Positions 3 to 11,199 of a stretch of 26,498 nucleotides of DNA are shown piece by piece (position 1 is the first letter of the stretch; every line of letters begins with the position of its first letter). The DNA comes from Candidatus Lindowiibacteriota bacterium (lineage in GTDB: Bacteria > Lindowbacteria > 2-12-FULL-62-27): the NCBI GenBank assembly GCA_023249255.1, contig JAHFCY010000003.1:12589-39086 (forward strand), read 5' to 3'. The notes beneath the pieces were generated by a model. The model saw only the letters and a program-made list of their open reading frames with translations. It had not been told where the DNA came from and did not search any database. Position numbers and translations under genes: made by a program.

Positions 3-1535
3 AACATCCAGGCGCGGATTCATGCATGGTCCGACGATCTGCCCCATGCCGAGGCGATCTATCTAAACATTCTTGAAATCAATCCGGCCGACATCGATGC
101 CCGACAGGGTCTGGTTGACGTGCTGGGGTGGCAGGGAAAGTTTGAAGAGGCGCGGGGCGTGTCGGCCCAATTGGTATCGGCGTCGCCGGACGACGAGGTG
201 ATCGCGTCGACCCACGCGCGGATTCTCGGACAGACCGGGAAACACGGGGAGGCCATCGCGTTTTTACAATCCTTTTTGGACAGGCACCCGGACGCTCCGC
301 AGGCTCGGGCTGAACTTTCCAACGAATTCGTCGCGGACAAGCGGTTCGGTGATGCCGTCAACGAACTGCGAAAATCCATCCAGCTCGACGGGAACAACAA
401 GGATAATTATCTGGCGCTTGGGAAACTCTATTCGTGGCAGGACAAAACGGAAGAAGCGGCGGCGCTGTATCAGTCGGTGCTGGATCACGATCCGGAAAAT
501 CTCCACGCTCTCATCGGCCTTGGCAATACCTACCGGTATGCGGGTCTCAAGGTCAAGGCGACGGAATATTACGAACGGGCGCTCGCTGTCGATCCGCGCT
601 CGCTCGCCGCGCAGGATGCGATGCGGCTCATTCGAGAAGCCGGCGCGCCCCAGACCCGGCTCAAATATTCATTCAGCCGTTACGATGACGCCGATCCGCC
701 GAATCGTCCCGTTCAGACAAGAACGTTCGCGGAAGAGCGCAGTGTCGACTATCGCCATTGTCTGTCTCCGGACAACACGCTCCTGTTCAAGTCCGACCGG
801 ACGAATTTGTTCGAGAAGAACAACCAGGCTGTCACCCGCACCTACAGCCTGACGCGCGAATCGCTCTCGGCGCGCTGGAACAGACAGTGGGACGCAAAGT
901 TCTACAGCGTCTTCAGCGCCAGTCTTCACGAGTACCGTCAGGACGCGATCGCGGCGATCAGTCCCCTGCCCGGCAGGAAAAAGCGGGGAGATTATTACGG
1001 GCTTATTCAGTTGAAAGCCGGCCCGGGGCTCACGACCGTGCTTTACTCGCAGGATGACTACATCACGTCGCAGAACAGCGGGAACCTGCAAATCGGCGAC
1101 ATCGCGAGTTTTGACATCACCCATCAGCGCGATGTGGCACCGGGCTTGAGAATCCTGGCCGAAGCCTCCACCGACCGGTTCAGCGTTTCGAGAGCGACGC
1201 GCGAGACCCGCAAGGGCAGTTTGACTTACACGTTTCCGAAGATCGACGGGCTGGGGATCGAGGGTAGTTATAAACGTACAACTGCCTCCATCACGCGGAC
1301 CCGGACAGCGCGGCTGTTCTGGGCGAAATATTATCCCGAAACAAAAATCTACATTTACGCCCATTACAAATACGAATACGAAAGCCTGTTTCACGACGCC
1401 TTTCACGAAGGCGATCTGCTCTATTCCGGCCCTTTGAAAGGCAACACGGAATACACGGCGGAAGTCCGATACACGGACTACTTCAGCGGAGATCAGTCAT
1501 GGGTCGCGACGGGATATATCACCTACACCTATTGA
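3..1535 (+). CDS. TPR / YaiO-like outer-membrane beta-barrel protein (5' partial)
   Basis: The reading frame is open to the left window edge, so the true start lies upstream; an internal GTG at 120 is not needed. The first ~190 visible residues are tetratricopeptide repeats (for example a helix pair around FEEARGVSAQL, then ALGKLYSWQDKTEEAAALYQ and a third around LIGLGNTYRYAG). The remaining ~300 residues alternate polar and aromatic positions in short strands (KIYIYAHYKYEYESLF) and end in TGYITYTY, typical of an outer-membrane barrel with a C-terminal aromatic residue. TPR plus barrel is the architecture of YaiO and of exopolysaccharide exporters such as PgaA and BcsC. As first gene of the exosortase locus it may assist export or anchoring of a polysaccharide. 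The family call is secure at the architecture level; the substrate is unknown. Confidence 0.8.
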   Translation, partial: NIQARIHAWSDDLPHAEAIYLNILEINPADIDARQGLVDVLGWQGKFEEARGVSAQLVSASPDDEVIASTHARILGQTGKHGEAIAFLQSFLDRHPDAPQARAELSNEFVADKRFGDAVNELRKSIQLDGNNKDNYLALGKLYSWQDKTEEAAALYQSVLDHDPENLHALIGLGNTYRYAGLKVKATEYYERALAVDPRSLAAQDAMRLIREAGAPQTRLKYSFSRYDDADPPNRPVQTRTFAEERSVDYRHCLSPDNTLLFKSDRTNLFEKNNQAVTRTYSLTRESLSARWNRQWDAKFYSVFSASLHEYRQDAIAAISPLPGRKKRGDYYGLIQLKAGPGLTTVLYSQDDYITSQNSGNLQIGDIASFDITHQRDVAPGLRILAEASTDRFSVSRATRETRKGSLTYTFPKIDGLGIEGSYKRTTASITRTRTARLFWAKYYPETKIYIYAHYKYEYESLFHDAFHEGDLLYSGPLKGNTEYTAEVRYTDYFSGDQSWVATGYITYTY

Positions 1536-2401
1536 TCGGCCGGCGTTCGAAGGTTGGCGTTCAACGATTGGATATTGTCCTGCTGATCATCGTCCTCGCA
1601 GGGCTCTGGGCCGATCCAAGTCGCGCGGCCGGGCCGCTGGCGTTCGACACGGTTATCGATACGGAGATGAACGGAGGCAGAGTGTTTGTGGCGACTGCGT
1701 CGTTTATCCGTCCGGATGGAGATCGCCTGTACGATCAGCGGACGTTCACCATCCCGCCGGATATTCTCAAAACAGTTGTCGCCGCCTATCTCTGCGTGAC
1801 GGGAGAGTCCGCACGGATCCAGTCGGACTCGGACATTCCGGCATCCGTGTCCGTTCCCGTCCGGTGCATCGCCCGATACCGGAAACACTCGCTGGAAACG
1901 CTGTACCACGACATTTTTCGAATTGATCCTGAGCGCGTCGGCGCGGCCGGCATCACGGTCAAAGGACTCATGTCCGATGCAGTCAATCCGTCCGGGCAAT
2001 TCAAATTTTCGATGGCGTCGGCGACCGTTGTGGTTATCTACAAAAAACCGGAAAAGATTCTGCGGCGAATCCGCTTCTTCGCCGGCCTTTCCAATCCTCC
2101 TCCGGGCGACGTCTACACGTTTTCATTCCCTCGTGTCTCTGAAAAATATCAGCCCATCCGCCTGACCGTCGGCGGCGGACACGGCATCAAGGGGAACGCC
2201 ACAGGCAATGTATTAAACGGCGTCACGTTGTCCGGCCGTGACGACTGGGACGGTTCTTCCGGGCCGATGTGGGATCTGGACACATACGACTTGAAAAAAT
2301 GGTTGTTTGACAACATAATGAAATATCGGTTTGGGATCGATACCATCCTGAACTGGATCTATCCGGAAATACTCATATTTGAGGAGGAGTTGAAATCTTG
2401 A
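1499..2401 (+). CDS. Secreted protein of unknown function (possible DUF3344-like)
   Basis: This 300-aa protein starts at ATG 1499, inside the 3' end of the preceding gene, with GGAG at 1488-1491 seven bases upstream. A long basic n-region is followed by a hydrophobic core (IVLLIIVLAGLWA) and a likely signal peptidase site after SRAA (about residue 44). The mature part is rich in beta-strand and Gly/Asp turns. Near residue 235-265 it carries a DDWDGSSGPMWDLDTYDL stretch resembling secreted jelly-roll proteins of the DUF3344 type; that resemblance is tentative. Its stop overlaps the TTG start of the next gene, so translation is probably coupled to the sorted protein and exosortase. It could be a surface structural protein or an accessory factor of the locus. 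Confidence 0.72.
   Translation: MGRDGIYHLHLLIGRRSKVGVQRLDIVLLIIVLAGLWADPSRAAGPLAFDTVIDTEMNGGRVFVATASFIRPDGDRLYDQRTFTIPPDILKTVVAAYLCVTGESARIQSDSDIPASVSVPVRCIARYRKHSLETLYHDIFRIDPERVGAAGITVKGLMSDAVNPSGQFKFSMASATVVVIYKKPEKILRRIRFFAGLSNPPPGDVYTFSFPRVSEKYQPIRLTVGGGHGIKGNATGNVLNGVTLSGRDDWDGSSGPMWDLDTYDLKKWLFDNIMKYRFGIDTILNWIYPEILIFEEELKS
2381..2387 (+). promoter_or_regulatory. Shine-Dalgarno deciding a TTG start
   Basis: GAGGAGG lies ten bases before TTG 2398, inside the end of the upstream gene. It supports the unusual TTG start and the TTGA stop-start overlap of the sorted small protein. Confidence 0.7.
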
Positions 2402-2727
2402 AACGATTCCGCGTGTGGAGTTGGGGTCTATTGATCTGTATGACCGTGATGTCGGCTTCGCTGATTTCGGTGGGTGTATTCCGCGCGGCGAATGCGTTTG
2501 CGAATTCGGAAGACAAGGAGGAGAAGAAGGAAGGAAACGAATCTGAAAAGGACGAGAAAGACGCCGACAAAGGGGAGAAGGGCGAAGATCACGGGGATAA
2601 CGACGACAAAGATAACTCAGGGAAGGTTCCTCCGAGCGCGCCGGAACTTCCCGGAGTCGTGATGATCCTGTCGGCCGCCGGAGCGCTGGGCGCGGGATAT
2701 CTGATCCGAAAACGCCGCAAGGCTTGA
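2398..2727 (+). CDS. Small charged protein with PEP-CTERM-like sorting signal (likely exosortase substrate)
   Basis: This 109-aa protein has an N-terminal signal peptide (hydrophobic LLICMTVMSASLISVGVF, cleavage probably after ANA near residue 37). A ~35-residue mature segment consists almost entirely of Lys, Glu, Asp and Gly, with Asn. The tail has PELP, a ~17-residue hydrophobic helix (VVMILSAAGALGAGYLI) and the basic end RKRRKA. A Pro-Glu motif, a transmembrane segment and a terminal Arg/Lys cluster together form the tripartite PEP-CTERM type signal that exosortases cleave. The PELP variant differs from the common VPEP and VPEID forms. The gene directly precedes the exosortase and overlaps its TTG start. 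The mature product would be a highly charged surface peptide of about 35-45 residues, possibly modified or polysaccharide-associated. Confidence 0.8.
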   Translation: MKRFRVWSWGLLICMTVMSASLISVGVFRAANAFANSEDKEEKKEGNESEKDEKDADKGEKGEDHGDNDDKDNSGKVPPSAPELPGVVMILSAAGALGAGYLIRKRRKA

Positions 2728-3536
2728 GTTCCCGCTCGCGCGCGGCCACCGCGTGTCTGCTTCATGCCGGATTGATCCTTTTTTTCCGCGATGTGTTTGT
2801 CTGGTACGGATTAAATTCCCTCAAAAATCCCTATTACAATTTTTCCCTGTTTTACATCGGTCTCTGGCTTGCGGCCCAGTTTATTCTCAAAATTGAATCC
2901 CGCTCCGCGGATCGTCCGGTTGCGGGTCTGCTCCTGACGTGTGCCGCCTGGTCGGCCTATATAATATGGAAGGGACCGTATATTTCCGCCGTCTGTTTTC
3001 TGTCGACGTCGATGCTGATCATGCGGTGGGCGTCACCGCCCGCGTGCCGGCGGATCGACGGACTTTACACAGCCGTATTCCTGACCCTGCCGTTTCCCTG
3101 CTATGTTGAAGTCTTATCGGCTCTGCAGATGTTCACCCTGCGCGAGTCGCTGGCCTTGTGCCGCGGTTTCGGTTGGACGTTTGATCATCAGGGATCCCTT
3201 GTGTTTTTGAGGGACGGGCCGGTTCGGATTGCCGCCGCATGTTCCGGATTTCAGTCCCTTGTTGTTTTCCTGGCCCTGGCCGGCATGCTCGGGTGTTTTT
3301 TACGGCTTGCGCTGCCCGGCAAATTTCTCATGCTGATCTCGGCGCTGGTCATTGCCATCGCCTTCAACATCGCCCGCGTTTTCGCGATGCTTCTTGTCGG
3401 GAACCACTGGAGCGTGGCCGCCGCGGAGGAATTCTGGCACGGGGTTTCCGCGTGGTTGTTTTACGCGGGCGCGCTGGGTAGCATGTCGGGCGTCGGGTTG
3501 TGGTTGAGGAATCGCCGCAGACTGACGATCTCTTAG
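2724..3536 (+). CDS. Exosortase (EpsH/Xrt family transmembrane transpeptidase)
   Basis: This is a 270-aa polytopic membrane protein with about 7-8 hydrophobic segments. The family's catalytic residues are all visible: Cys173 in AAACSGFQSL, Arg218 in FNIARVFAM, and His239 in EFWHGVSAWLFY. Exosortases cut C-terminal sorting signals such as PEP-CTERM at the inner membrane, and the encoded substrate is the neighbour just upstream. The start is TTG 2724, overlapping the preceding TGA; a TTG start with a one-codon-register overlap is also used by the preceding gene. The family is certain from the motif trio; the subtype is not assignable by eye. Confidence 0.93.
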   Translation: MSSRSRAATACLLHAGLILFFRDVFVWYGLNSLKNPYYNFSLFYIGLWLAAQFILKIESRSADRPVAGLLLTCAAWSAYIIWKGPYISAVCFLSTSMLIMRWASPPACRRIDGLYTAVFLTLPFPCYVEVLSALQMFTLRESLALCRGFGWTFDHQGSLVFLRDGPVRIAAACSGFQSLVVFLALAGMLGCFLRLALPGKFLMLISALVIAIAFNIARVFAMLLVGNHWSVAAAEEFWHGVSAWLFYAGALGSMSGVGLWLRNRRRLTIS

Positions 3537-3548
3537 AATGCGCCGGCG

Positions 3549-5525
3549 GTGCTGAAACGCCGGTTGAGGCGGCGAAGCGGGATGGCGGGACGCGCGGGTT
3601 TCTGGCTTGTTTTTCTCTGGTCTGTTCAAATTGCCGGTCCGGCGTCTGCAGGCCGGACGTTCACCTCCATCTGCGACGTAAATTCGTATTTTTACACCGA
3701 CCACGAGTCACGTCTGACGATGTCGTCAGATCTGTTTTACCGGAACAACTTCCAGCGCATCCCGTTGCAATTCGGGTCATGGAAAGCCGCGCAGTTGGAC
3801 CAAAAGACCGATCCCTATGTCAGTACGTGGCTCTATACGGACAATTCGACCGGCGCCGAGGTTTATTTCATGATGGTTCACGGCGCGATCGAAAGTGATT
3901 TTCATATTCCGGAAGTCTGCTACATTGACGACGGTTGGTCTCTGGACGAACGGAAATTCAAAATGATCGCGCATGGCGCCGACGCCATGCAAGTCAAATA
4001 CGTTCGCGCAACATACGGGGCCGAGGTCCACCACATCTATTATTTTTTTCTGTGGAAAAACGCCGCCCGACAGACTGCCTCCGACGGCGCCTATATGTTT
4101 CGCGTCTCCGTTCGCGGCGCCACCGCAGGTTCGCAAACACCCGACGCAATTTTCGCAAATTTTCTGACGGCGTTGAGCGGAACGCAATTCGGGGAGACCG
4201 AATCCGCAACGGCAATTTATCCGACGCGGTTGGTCAGGGAGAGATTCAAATCCGCGGCGGTCGGATCGGTGCGTCGTATTGAGTCGATGTCACAGCTTGA
4301 ATCTTTTCTTCTCGGGCAGATGGTCCCCAATCCGACCGTCCCCTCGCCGGCATCCGTGCGCCGCGGCCTGATCCTGTCATACAATCAGTCTCCTGGCGCG
4401 CCCGGATACCGTTACACCTTTTCGCGTTCCTCCATCTACGACGACGCCGTTGCGGTCGTTGCGCTGACGATGCTGGACCGCTCCCGGGAGGCGTCCCTGA
4501 TCATCAACGGGATGATGCGCAGTGCCCGTCCAAACGGCGATCTCTGGTTCGAACTGAACACCCACAACACCTGGCCGGACGAAAAAGACAGCGATGGCGC
4601 GATCATCCGAACCGGCGCGAGTTCGTGGGCCGGGTACGCGGTCTGCTACCACATTCTCGCGGCGCTGTCGAAAAATCCGAATGCGCTGAACGATGACGCA
4701 ATCCTCGCAGATTATCTTCATTTCGCCCGGAGGATTGCAGCCGGCGTGATGTGGCGGCAGATTCGCAATCCTGCGGATCCGCGCAACGGGCTGGTGACCG
4801 GCGGCGCCGGCTCGTACACGTTGGACACCGTGAACGGCGAGTTGCAGGAAACCTACAGGCTGGGCGAAGTCGCCTGGTGCAGTACGGAGCACAACATTGA
4901 CGCCTTCTTTTTCCTCCGGGATCTTGCCTACATCACCGGGGACGACACCTTCTCGATTGCCGCGGACATGATCCGGCAGGGACTGCTCGGAAATTTGAAT
5001 CCGTCTTCGGGTCAGTTCAACCGGGGATTGAGCGCAACCGGTCCGGACACCGTCATGGCGCTGGACTGCGCGTCGTGGGGCGCGATGTTTCTGGAGGCCA
5101 TCGGGAAACGCGGCCCTGCGTCGTCGGCGTTGGCGTCGGCGGTCCGATACGAGAATCGTTCCGCCGGCATTTCGGGTTACCGGCCGTATTTTGATCTGCC
5201 AGTCTACGAGGACACAGCCGCGCAGTCGCGATTTTTCAGCCGGACCCCCGATCTTACGTGGAGGGATTATTCGATGGTCTGGTCCGAGGGATCGCTTGGC
5301 GTGGCGCTGGCATCCGCGCGACTCGGAAAGGAACGTGCTGCGGAGGAAATTCTGAACAACATGCTTGATCCGAAAATGAATATTGGCGGCGGAATCCGGT
5401 ATGCGGACAAAGAATTGCAGTATCAGTTTTCGTCATCGCCGTCCGCCATAGGGACCGCGTGGGCGATTCTGACCGGAAAAAAACTGGAAGGCGGATTTCT
5501 GCCGGATCTGTTCTGGAGTCCTTAG
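3549..5525 (+). CDS. EpsI-like domain fused to six-hairpin glycosidase-like domain
   Basis: This 658-aa protein has a GTG start at 3549 (alternative ATG 3582). A signal peptide or membrane anchor is followed at about residues 60-220 by an EpsI/DUF3485-type region: WLYTDNSTGAEVYFMMVHG, then HIPEVC (His119-Cys124) and GW at 129-130, the conserved histidine/cysteine signature of exosortase-associated EpsI. Residues ~240-658 form a helical repeat region with YDDA (297-300), LWFELNTHNTWP, and WCSTEHNIDAFFFLRDLA (443-460), which looks like an (alpha/alpha)6 glycosidase or epimerase fold. EpsI normally stands alone or is fused to the exosortase, so this combination is unusual. It probably trims or remodels a polysaccharide linked to the exosortase pathway. 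The EpsI call is strong; enzyme activity of the C-terminal domain is inferred only. Confidence 0.75.
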   Translation: MLKRRLRRRSGMAGRAGFWLVFLWSVQIAGPASAGRTFTSICDVNSYFYTDHESRLTMSSDLFYRNNFQRIPLQFGSWKAAQLDQKTDPYVSTWLYTDNSTGAEVYFMMVHGAIESDFHIPEVCYIDDGWSLDERKFKMIAHGADAMQVKYVRATYGAEVHHIYYFFLWKNAARQTASDGAYMFRVSVRGATAGSQTPDAIFANFLTALSGTQFGETESATAIYPTRLVRERFKSAAVGSVRRIESMSQLESFLLGQMVPNPTVPSPASVRRGLILSYNQSPGAPGYRYTFSRSSIYDDAVAVVALTMLDRSREASLIINGMMRSARPNGDLWFELNTHNTWPDEKDSDGAIIRTGASSWAGYAVCYHILAALSKNPNALNDDAILADYLHFARRIAAGVMWRQIRNPADPRNGLVTGGAGSYTLDTVNGELQETYRLGEVAWCSTEHNIDAFFFLRDLAYITGDDTFSIAADMIRQGLLGNLNPSSGQFNRGLSATGPDTVMALDCASWGAMFLEAIGKRGPASSALASAVRYENRSAGISGYRPYFDLPVYEDTAAQSRFFSRTPDLTWRDYSMVWSEGSLGVALASARLGKERAAEEILNNMLDPKMNIGGGIRYADKELQYQFSSSPSAIGTAWAILTGKKLEGGFLPDLFWSP

Positions 5526-8309: not shown

Positions 8310-11057
8310 TCAGCCTTTCGCCAAAGCGGCATTTAAAGTTTTCTGGAGCGTCAATTTGATGTTCAAGAGTGCGCCGGCCGGCAGAGCCGACGATTTGTCG
8401 AGGATGACATGCGTGACCTCGAACGCCGCCGCTCCGGCATGCCGGGCCGCGGCAATCCACGCCGTCCGCTGGCGGGCGTCGGATGGATCGATCAAGCCCG
8501 TGTCCGTTTCGATCGTGAAATGGGACAGGTCACCGGCGGCTGGATCGGGGAATTCCGATTTCTGGACGGCTTTGACGCGGGCCACAGCGACATCCCCGCC
8601 GGTTGCGTTCGCGAATCGATCCGGATTCATCGGCGCCACGGCGACTTTCCCGTTCGTCTCGGTTATGTCGTAAAAATTGATCTTTCGCTTCGGATCGATG
8701 GCCGACACGAAGGATCGGATTCCCCGCAATTCGCGGTCCCGGCTCAATATGGGCACCAACCCGGCCGTCACACGGTTGAGGTCGTCGGAAACGAAAACGA
8801 CCGCGTGCGCGCCGTTGACCGCTCCGGCAAATACGTCGAACTCGCCGTTTCGAAAATGATTGGCGGCGGGCGCAAAATAGCCGCTGTGGGCAAGCTCGGC
8901 GTCGAACAAATAACTTCTTGGCAGGTCGCTTTGAATCTCGCGCCGAATCAACGCGAGCAGGCCATACAGGCTGGGGTGCCGGAAACACCGCACGTCCGAT
9001 CCGAGCGCGGCGTATCCGACGTGCTCGCCCGACCGCGCAGCGAGAAAAATTCCGACCGAACGTTCTGGCCGGAGCGGACGAAACGCCGACAGCATATCCA
9101 TGAGACGGCCTTTGAACGCAAGAAGCTCTTTCATGCCGCCCGCGACGGAATGGAACGTCAGAAACTGGATGGGATTTGGCCGGCCCTGCCGGATGTAACC
9201 GGACAGAAGTGCGCAGATGAGCGGCTCCATCTCCGTTTCCGATGTGAAATGTTCCGCAAAGACCTCTCCCCAACTGTTCATGTAAAACACGCTGAATTGG
9301 TCAATCGCATCAGACAGATCGAGCCGGCACGTGAAAAAGGCGCGCTGGATGAACGGCTCCTCGAGATAGTGCTTGGACTTTGCAGACGAATGGGACAGAA
9401 ACGGGTCAGCCATGGCGGTGATCAGTTTGGAAAGATCACTGCTGGAAATGTTGGAATCAGTGAAAAAGACGCCAAGTTTGGTGTGGTTCGGATTAAAAAT
9501 TTTGCTGTTGGCAATCCAGAGGCAGAGGTCGGTGAGATGCGTCCCGGAGTACAGCAGATTGGAGAACTTGAGCTGGTGTTTATCCCGGACGGCCTCGCCG
9601 CGATACAGTTTCCATCCGTCATTCTCCCGGGCGATGTTGAGTTCCGATTCGAAAACACTCTCGCCAAACGTGAAACAAAAATTTCTGACCTTTTTCGGCT
9701 TGGGCAGATAATACGACATGAGCTTGCGCGTGATGACCGTGAGATCGTTTTCGGTCAGAAGGTTGGAGTCGCTGAATGACTCGTGGGACTTGCTGAGCTG
9801 GGAGAACGACTGGATCATGTAGACTTTCAGTTCGTGGTCGAATTTGAGGATGTCATCCATCGGCCAGAGGTGGAACGAGTCGAGCCGCCGGATGCGCGAT
9901 GAGTCCCAGCCCCAGCTTTTCACGCGCTGGTCCATAAGGATGAGCTTCTGGCTGCCGGCCCGGACATTGCGGCTTAATCCTGACAGGTTCGCCTCGACTT
10001 TCATGTAGAAACAAGTCCGGAGCAGATCCAGTTCCCGCTGTTTGTCCCGCGAGAGAAAAAAGTCCTCCACGGATTTGAACATCAGGAGGTACCCGTCCGT
10101 GCAGGCGGTGTCGAGACATTCCTTCTGGAGGATGTTTTCCTTCAGCGTGTTCGAGAGAAGCACGACGTGGTTGTCCGAATCGGAAAAAAGATATTTTTCA
10201 ATCAGGCACATTTTGATAAAGGATTTGAACGGGTATCGGAGGGATTTCACGAGTTGCCAGAGCGCCGCGCCGAAAAATTCGCCCTTGTTGATTTGCCCGA
10301 CGTTGCCGATGTCGATGTAGTCCTTCGAAAAGGCGCCATTGCCCTCAAGACATTTTTCATGGAAGCGGTCATAGTCCTCGTCGGTCGCGCCGGGCTCGAC
10401 CATCCACCAGTACGGAATCTTGCCGGCGATGAGAATGGCCGTGCGATAGTATTCGTCCTTCAGCATGAGCGCCTGAGCCGAGCCGCACGATTCGTCGTCG
10501 ACCGCTCCGAAGACGTTATTTTTGACCGATTTGATGTCGGTCGGAAAGAAGTGGACTTCGAGCCGCAGGGTCTCGAGCCATTCCTCGATCGCGCGCAATT
10601 TCTGGAGAAACCGGCGGTAGGACTCGTCGTCCACGGCGTCGCGGTGAATGCCGACCCACATGTCAAAATCGGAATTGCGCGTCTGCGCGACCGACCCCAC
10701 GCTTCCCATGACGCTCAAAAATTCGATGAATCCCTCCGACCGGTCGTCCTTCTGCGCGAGTTTGACCTTTTTCGAAAAATAGCGGTCGACGTAAAGGACA
10801 GCGTCCTCGTCCGGCGTGTGGAATTTGATGCCGTGCGGAGTCTCCGGGTGATCCACAAACCCGGGAAGACCCCGGAAGTTGGTGTGGAGAAGGAACGGGA
10901 CAATTTTGAAAATCAGATAATAATTGTCCGGGAACACGGTATAAACATTTTGAAACCGCTGCCGGTTGAATTTATCAAAAAGGGACCGGTTCCTCGACAG
11001 ATCTATCCCCTCTGCCGACGAACGGTCCCCCCCCTGCGGCGTTATCCGAGTCGCCAT
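8310..11057 (-). CDS. cyaA: Class I adenylate cyclase
   Basis: This ~915-aa protein synthesises cAMP from ATP. The N-terminal nucleotidyltransferase-type catalytic region shows NRQRFQ, then GSVGSVAQTRNSDFDMWV (GS at about residue 118, Asp130 and Asp132 as likely metal ligands), LEVHFFPTDI, CGSAQALMLKDEYYRTA and IDIGNVGQINKGEFFGAALWQL, matching the class I (CyaA) family over ~450 residues. The C-terminal half is much less conserved and is presumably regulatory. ATG 11057 is preferred (GGGG upstream); an in-frame GTG at 11075 is possible. It is divergent from the secreted-protein operon at 11200, sharing a ~140-bp promoter region. Length is slightly above the enteric 848 aa. Confidence 0.92.
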   Translation of the reverse strand: MATRITPQGGDRSSAEGIDLSRNRSLFDKFNRQRFQNVYTVFPDNYYLIFKIVPFLLHTNFRGLPGFVDHPETPHGIKFHTPDEDAVLYVDRYFSKKVKLAQKDDRSEGFIEFLSVMGSVGSVAQTRNSDFDMWVGIHRDAVDDESYRRFLQKLRAIEEWLETLRLEVHFFPTDIKSVKNNVFGAVDDESCGSAQALMLKDEYYRTAILIAGKIPYWWMVEPGATDEDYDRFHEKCLEGNGAFSKDYIDIGNVGQINKGEFFGAALWQLVKSLRYPFKSFIKMCLIEKYLFSDSDNHVVLLSNTLKENILQKECLDTACTDGYLLMFKSVEDFFLSRDKQRELDLLRTCFYMKVEANLSGLSRNVRAGSQKLILMDQRVKSWGWDSSRIRRLDSFHLWPMDDILKFDHELKVYMIQSFSQLSKSHESFSDSNLLTENDLTVITRKLMSYYLPKPKKVRNFCFTFGESVFESELNIARENDGWKLYRGEAVRDKHQLKFSNLLYSGTHLTDLCLWIANSKIFNPNHTKLGVFFTDSNISSSDLSKLITAMADPFLSHSSAKSKHYLEEPFIQRAFFTCRLDLSDAIDQFSVFYMNSWGEVFAEHFTSETEMEPLICALLSGYIRQGRPNPIQFLTFHSVAGGMKELLAFKGRLMDMLSAFRPLRPERSVGIFLAARSGEHVGYAALGSDVRCFRHPSLYGLLALIRREIQSDLPRSYLFDAELAHSGYFAPAANHFRNGEFDVFAGAVNGAHAVVFVSDDLNRVTAGLVPILSRDRELRGIRSFVSAIDPKRKINFYDITETNGKVAVAPMNPDRFANATGGDVAVARVKAVQKSEFPDPAAGDLSHFTIETDTGLIDPSDARQRTAWIAAARHAGAAAFEVTHVILDKSSALPAGALLNIKLTLQKTLNAALAKG

Positions 11058-11199
11058 AACCCCATATTGTACCACGATCCGACCCGATGGACAAATTTCT
11101 CTTTTTTTTCACATCCCGTGTTCGGTTTCAGCCTCCGGCCTCGTTCAGATCATCAGAGGGCGATTAAGCCCGAGACTACGATTCAGGGAGGTGTGGTTT

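Follow-up and report, generated by a model that had tools for sequence, protein, structure and literature searches.

A probable dedicated exosortase system outside the named subtypes in a synthase-type polysaccharide locus of a Lindowbacteria-related genome

Can an exosortase serve a single small neighbour as its dedicated substrate, and to what would it attach that protein? Haft and colleagues suggested that the protein is passed to a periplasmic nucleophile of unknown identity, and EpsI had no known function when it was described in 2006 (PMC1569441). Later studies of other bacteria showed a need for exosortases or PEP-CTERM proteins in the formation of flocs and biofilms and linked them to polysaccharide attachment (PMC12188702, PMC9850573, PMC10936215), and the acceptor of bacterial exosortases is not established in the published exosortase work that we searched. 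The locus considered here lies at one end of a window of 26,498 nucleotides, the whole stretch of DNA analysed (G000:C308:12589-39086), from a 3.35-Mb Lindowbacteria-related metagenome-assembled genome (MAG) with a completeness of 88.7%. The closest locus-bearing relative of this host is Candidatus Lindowbacteria bacterium RIFCSPLOWO2_12_FULL_62_27 (MFPR01000006.1), which belongs to the same family.

At 3-5525 on the forward strand, five coupled genes with overlapping or almost abutting open reading frames encode an outer-membrane protein (OMP), a secreted protein (SEC), a small tailed protein, an exosortase and an EpsI fusion, which agrees with the five-gene locus described in an earlier sequence-only reading of this DNA. 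That reading had recommended a check for glycosyltransferases upstream of position 1, and a processive GT2 glycosyltransferase (L002:9382-10827; PF13641 and PF00535 matches) is present there on the same strand, beside a same-strand gene for a HEAT protein (L002:8316-9380). An HDOD-like gene, named by eye without a model, lies between the GT2 and OMP genes on the opposite strand. The OMP gene itself starts upstream of the window at L002:11794 and, ahead of the window, is broken by a stretch of N; the part inside the window (3..1535, +) encodes TPR repeats with Pfam matches and a C-terminal beta-barrel judged from sequence without a model, an arrangement like that of an export porin, and the homologue in a second Lindowbacterium (G001) is full length at 793 aa. 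The PgaA model matched the OMP through its TPRs only and far below cut-off. A GT2 synthase and a TPR/barrel outer-membrane protein, the combination that marks a synthase-dependent polysaccharide locus, are both present. Elsewhere on the contig we noted a collagen-like Gly-X-Y fragment at its start (L002:2-763, +) and, in this Lindowbacterium-like genome, a class I adenylate cyclase (PF01295, PF12633) at window positions 8310-11075 (-).

The exosortase (270 aa; 2724..3536, +) begins at a TTG that overlaps the preceding stop codon. It belongs to the family by PF09721 (E=1.1e-21; 77.8 bits, cut-off 25.7) and passes the broad signature TIGR04178 (54.2 against a cut-off of 23), the sole NCBIfam exosortase model that it passes. 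Its catalytic-type residues, Cys173 (3240-3242), Arg218 (3375-3377) and His239 (3438-3440), had been picked out in the sequence-only reading, and alignment showed that they are kept in G001 and in G132, a genome of another phylum. Members of the exosortase/archaeosortase family have about eight membrane helices; a simple hydropathy count gave four in the window protein and six or seven in its relatives. A sequence search of the exosortase against solved structures returned no significant match. A check for other exosortases found only this one in the host genome, and in G001 we observed a second, short exosortase-like protein (193 aa; L147:8081-8662, -) away from the locus.

Eight exosortases of the loci described below were scanned against NCBIfam 20.0, and none reached a named subtype cut-off; the placing of the window enzyme in a named NCBIfam subtype was rejected on this ground. 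With the general model TIGR02602 the eight scored 49.0-92.5 bits, all under its cut-off of 105.55. XrtA (TIGR03109, cut-off 208) was the best or second-best named subtype for every one of them, giving 54.2 bits for the window exosortase and 48.6-103.6 bits for its relatives. Control exosortases from other genomes, chosen mostly from high-scoring PF09721 matches, all passed TIGR02602 (10 of 10), and four of the ten passed a subtype model. In a tree of 59 exosortases, a step that had also been suggested beforehand, the nine from these loci (including that of G674, left out of the NCBIfam scan) hold together with one orphan from G677 at 94/90; this grouping falls short of the value at which branches are starred, and some of its members sit on long branches. 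The orphan (L145:9240-10106, +) has no SEC, EpsI or GT2 neighbours. Two outlying copies carry substitutions at catalytic positions, Cys to Ser in G459 (L062:5587-6423, -) and His to Lys in the second locus of G678 (L068:8190-9071, -), and these copies may therefore act differently or be degenerate.

The candidate substrate is encoded immediately upstream of the exosortase (2398..2727, +) by a gene with a TTG start and GAGGAGGAG upstream. As had been proposed, the 109-aa product contains a signal peptide and a sorting tail (2629..2724, +) composed of PPSAPELPG, a hydrophobic helix and RKRRKA, and all of these features are present in the sequence; a charged flexible linker lies between them. Alignment of six loci gave the tail consensus P-[SG]-A-P-E-[LM], and the motif was later read in G673 as well, whereas tails are more divergent in G678 (C19), G459 and G678 (C24). 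A description of the protein as a Lys/Glu/Asp-rich peptide proved accurate for Lindowbacteria; in other genomes the middle is Gly/Ser/Arg/Asp-rich or otherwise different, and the conserved features are the signal peptide and the tail. We found both on the small proteins of all ten loci, and in nine of the ten the gene is exosortase-adjacent, between SEC and the exosortase.

A profile built from the six aligned tails gave exactly one strong match (E<2e-17) in each of those six genomes, including the host MAG at about 89% completeness, so the search for other PELP-helix-RKRRK tails did not turn up dozens. Across the nine genomes searched, nothing beyond the strong matches was better than E=0.13, and in G000, G001 and G132 nothing past the known protein was better than E=0.5. 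The profile misses the substrate of G459 and barely finds that of G678 C24 (E=0.2); other divergent tails could thus escape, and 'single' refers to tails of that form only. For PF07589 and TIGR02595, no match to the window protein was listed, and PF07589 had no match over cut-off in the host genome. PF07589 exceeded its cut-off in G678 C24 alone, where the same tail reaches TIGR02595 (20.7 against 16).

The last gene of the locus (3549..5525, +) encodes a fusion protein of 658 aa, for which an ATG at 3582 is possibly the true start. Its first part is an EpsI (DUF3485) domain (3744..4052, +) by PF11984 (31.4 bits against 26.1; E=1.9e-7), so the EpsI-containing fusion of the sequence-only reading stands, the remainder being a separate toroid-like domain. 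Because TIGR02914 gives 26.3, below its cut-off of 42.8, the EpsI domain would be missed if that model were used alone. The remainder (4272..5522, +) is predicted to form an (alpha/alpha)6-toroid resembling sugar-active enzymes: in a model built from two sequences, with a mean pLDDT of 47, residues 231-647 match (alpha/alpha)6 sugar enzymes with VIA-align Z up to 18.3. A sequence search of the toroid against solved structures gave no significant match. Toroid homologues without EpsI adjoin GT2 in G416 and both GT2 and HEAT genes in G294 and G417, and in G418 a GT2 synthase and toroid share one 942-aa open reading frame (L065:7901-10729, +) that is either a real fusion or an assembly indel; no exosortase over cut-off was found in these four genomes. 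The neighbourhood of the EpsI-free toroids links this domain with the synthase, and the fusion in turn links EpsI with the toroid. A tree of the toroid domains is compatible with one origin of the EpsI fusion or with several.

SEC (1499..2401, +) is a marker of these loci. Ten aligned homologues conserve the core GGHGxxGNxxxNxLNG..DDWDGSSGxxWDxD, and the protein had no match in Pfam or NCBIfam. It may resemble secreted beta-domain proteins; an attempt to assign its fold by structure prediction was discarded, the model having a pLDDT of 46 and its Foldseek matches being meaningless. Among 222 genomes of relatives, SEC was present only in G000, G001 and G132, and both SEC and the EpsI-toroid fusion are absent from all 18 other exosortase loci examined.

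The unit occurs in ten loci, distributed over the host, the second Lindowbacterium and seven genomes of one other phylum (G132, G672-G675, G678 and G459), and this recurrence argues that it is not a chance assembly. The order SEC-substrate-exosortase-EpsI-toroid is kept in G001, G132, G672, G674, G675, G678 (C19) and G459. In G673 the contig carries GT2, OMP, SEC and the substrate and then ends inside the exosortase. The second locus of G678 (C24) has SEC, an exosortase and an EpsI without the toroid, and its tailed gene lies upstream and is divergently transcribed. A contig scan with the EpsI fusion, using peptide patterns that are narrow, matched only the known Lindowbacterium. We also observed a CBM30/CBM11-like secreted protein adjoining the locus in G001 and in the phylum of G132 (L007:8618-10585, -; L026:2646-5255, +), a neighbour that hints at a beta-glucan-like polymer; the counterpart of this additional glycan-related gene (CBM30-like in G001) in the host is a weak domain match.

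Taken together, these data suggest that the five genes are probably a dedicated exosortase system, of a subtype that has no name as yet, and that this system forms part of a synthase-type polysaccharide locus. A dedicated or new subtype was what the sequence-only reading had put forward, and neither of the findings that it had set against itself, dozens of like-tailed substrates or placement inside a well-described subtype, emerged. In the mechanism that we propose, the GT2 enzyme would make the polymer and pass it across the inner membrane, the toroid would trim or modify it in the periplasm and the OMP would export it. The small protein would cross by Sec and be held in the membrane by its tail helix until the exosortase Cys attacked near the P-x-A-P-E motif, removed the helix and handed the protein to an acceptor. 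This acceptor would most likely be the polymer itself or else a glycan or lipid attached to it; we infer the cleavage, the acceptor and the polymer identity, and favour the polymer as acceptor because the EpsI-toroid fusion joins an exosortase accessory domain to a synthase-locus domain. The flexible protein would end at the surface, displayed together with the polysaccharide and holding it to the cell. A more specific form of this proposal, which we advance tentatively, is that the exosortase joins the small protein to the GT2 product, either while the chain is still growing or once it is complete, and that the EpsI-toroid protein presents the chain end as acceptor.

The nature of the acceptor is where the closest alternative departs from this mechanism. 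The system could be dedicated to one protein and yet use a membrane lipid, so that the small protein became a lipid-anchored periplasmic or outer-membrane part aiding the synthase-OMP complex without being bound to the polymer. By precedent, a lipid acceptor as in archaea would be as plausible: cleavage and lipid modification are reported for the substrates of archaeosortase ArtA (cited in PMC11980579), and the title of PMC7157517 is Lipid Anchoring of Archaeosortase Substrates. The size of the small protein and its flexible middle would also fit a scaffold. EpsI, however, is here fused to a toroid that elsewhere adjoins the polysaccharide synthase, which points to the polymer, and we regard the lipid-anchored part as possible rather than probable.

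Two further explanations concern the exosortase itself. That the locus is a shrunken ordinary PEP-CTERM/XrtA-type system, whose formerly numerous substrates dwindled to one, would make it a product of reduction and not a separate subtype; XrtA's rank as best or second-best subtype in all eight scanned exosortases and the recognisable PEP-CTERM tail at the second G678 locus are consistent with this. We nevertheless consider reduction improbable, given XrtA scores of 48.6-103.6 against 208, an exosortase group supported across two phyla, and a SEC and EpsI-toroid fusion that the 18 other loci lack. Still harder to credit is that the exosortase chiefly matures another protein, such as SEC or unseen targets, with the small tailed protein serving as an accessory peptide in the membrane. 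In favour of this, SEC occurs just as consistently as the small protein does, and unseen targets could have divergent tails that, like that of G459, escape the profile; but SEC has no C-terminal helix, and the tripartite tail recurs on the small protein in 10 of 10 loci, adjoining the exosortase in 9 of 10, so we judge this very unlikely.

The probable dedicated system shares much with the PEP-CTERM/EpsH (exosortase A) system (PMC1569441), namely a Cys/Arg/His exosortase family with EpsI alongside and polysaccharide genes near, and a substrate with a signal peptide, P-E motif, helix and basic end. It differs in having a single substrate, where the published median is eight, a P-[SG]-A-P-E-[LM] motif unreached by PEP-CTERM models, an exosortase that scores below both the XrtA and the general cut-off, polysaccharide genes of the synthase type, an EpsI fused to a toroid, and SEC. 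Held against the PEP-CTERM/XrtA features, the window locus has EpsI nearby but lacks a score at the XrtA cut-off, a match to the tail models and many substrates. The XrtF system is alike in placing a variant-type exosortase, required there for biofilm formation, beside a partner gene; its targets are not known, whereas the target gene is evident here, and we found no XrtF match at the thresholds used. Synthase-dependent exopolysaccharide systems such as PgaABCD, Bcs and Alg combine a GT2 synthase, a TPR/barrel OMP and a periplasmic sugar-active protein. The GT2 and the OMP recur here, and the toroid is a modelled candidate for the sugar-active protein; the present locus adds an exosortase, a tailed substrate, EpsI and SEC to this set, and a HEAT protein adjoins GT2. 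In one-target rhombosortase/GlyGly-CTERM pairs the sorting enzyme and its sole target also lie side by side, but the enzymes belong to an unrelated serine protease family and no polysaccharide locus is described (PMC3237569). By that analogy, a sorting enzyme with a single adjoining target is already known in principle (PMC3237569); what is new here is that the pair sits in a synthase-type setting, together with a SEC protein specific to such loci and a fusion of EpsI to a toroid. We found no description of a SEC/EpsI-toroid exosortase system in the literature searched, most subscription journals lying outside the search.

Numerous substrates and large gene clusters make most exosortase systems hard to dissect. 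Here the enzyme, a single substrate, an accessory domain and a synthase are gathered in a short operon-like unit of a size that would permit reconstruction, and the fusion of EpsI to the toroid provides a direct lead to the function of EpsI. Such a unit could help to show what exosortases attach proteins to. If transfer onto the chain were true, it would be a one-protein, one-polymer coupling that finally supplies exosortases with their missing acceptor and gives EpsI a role.
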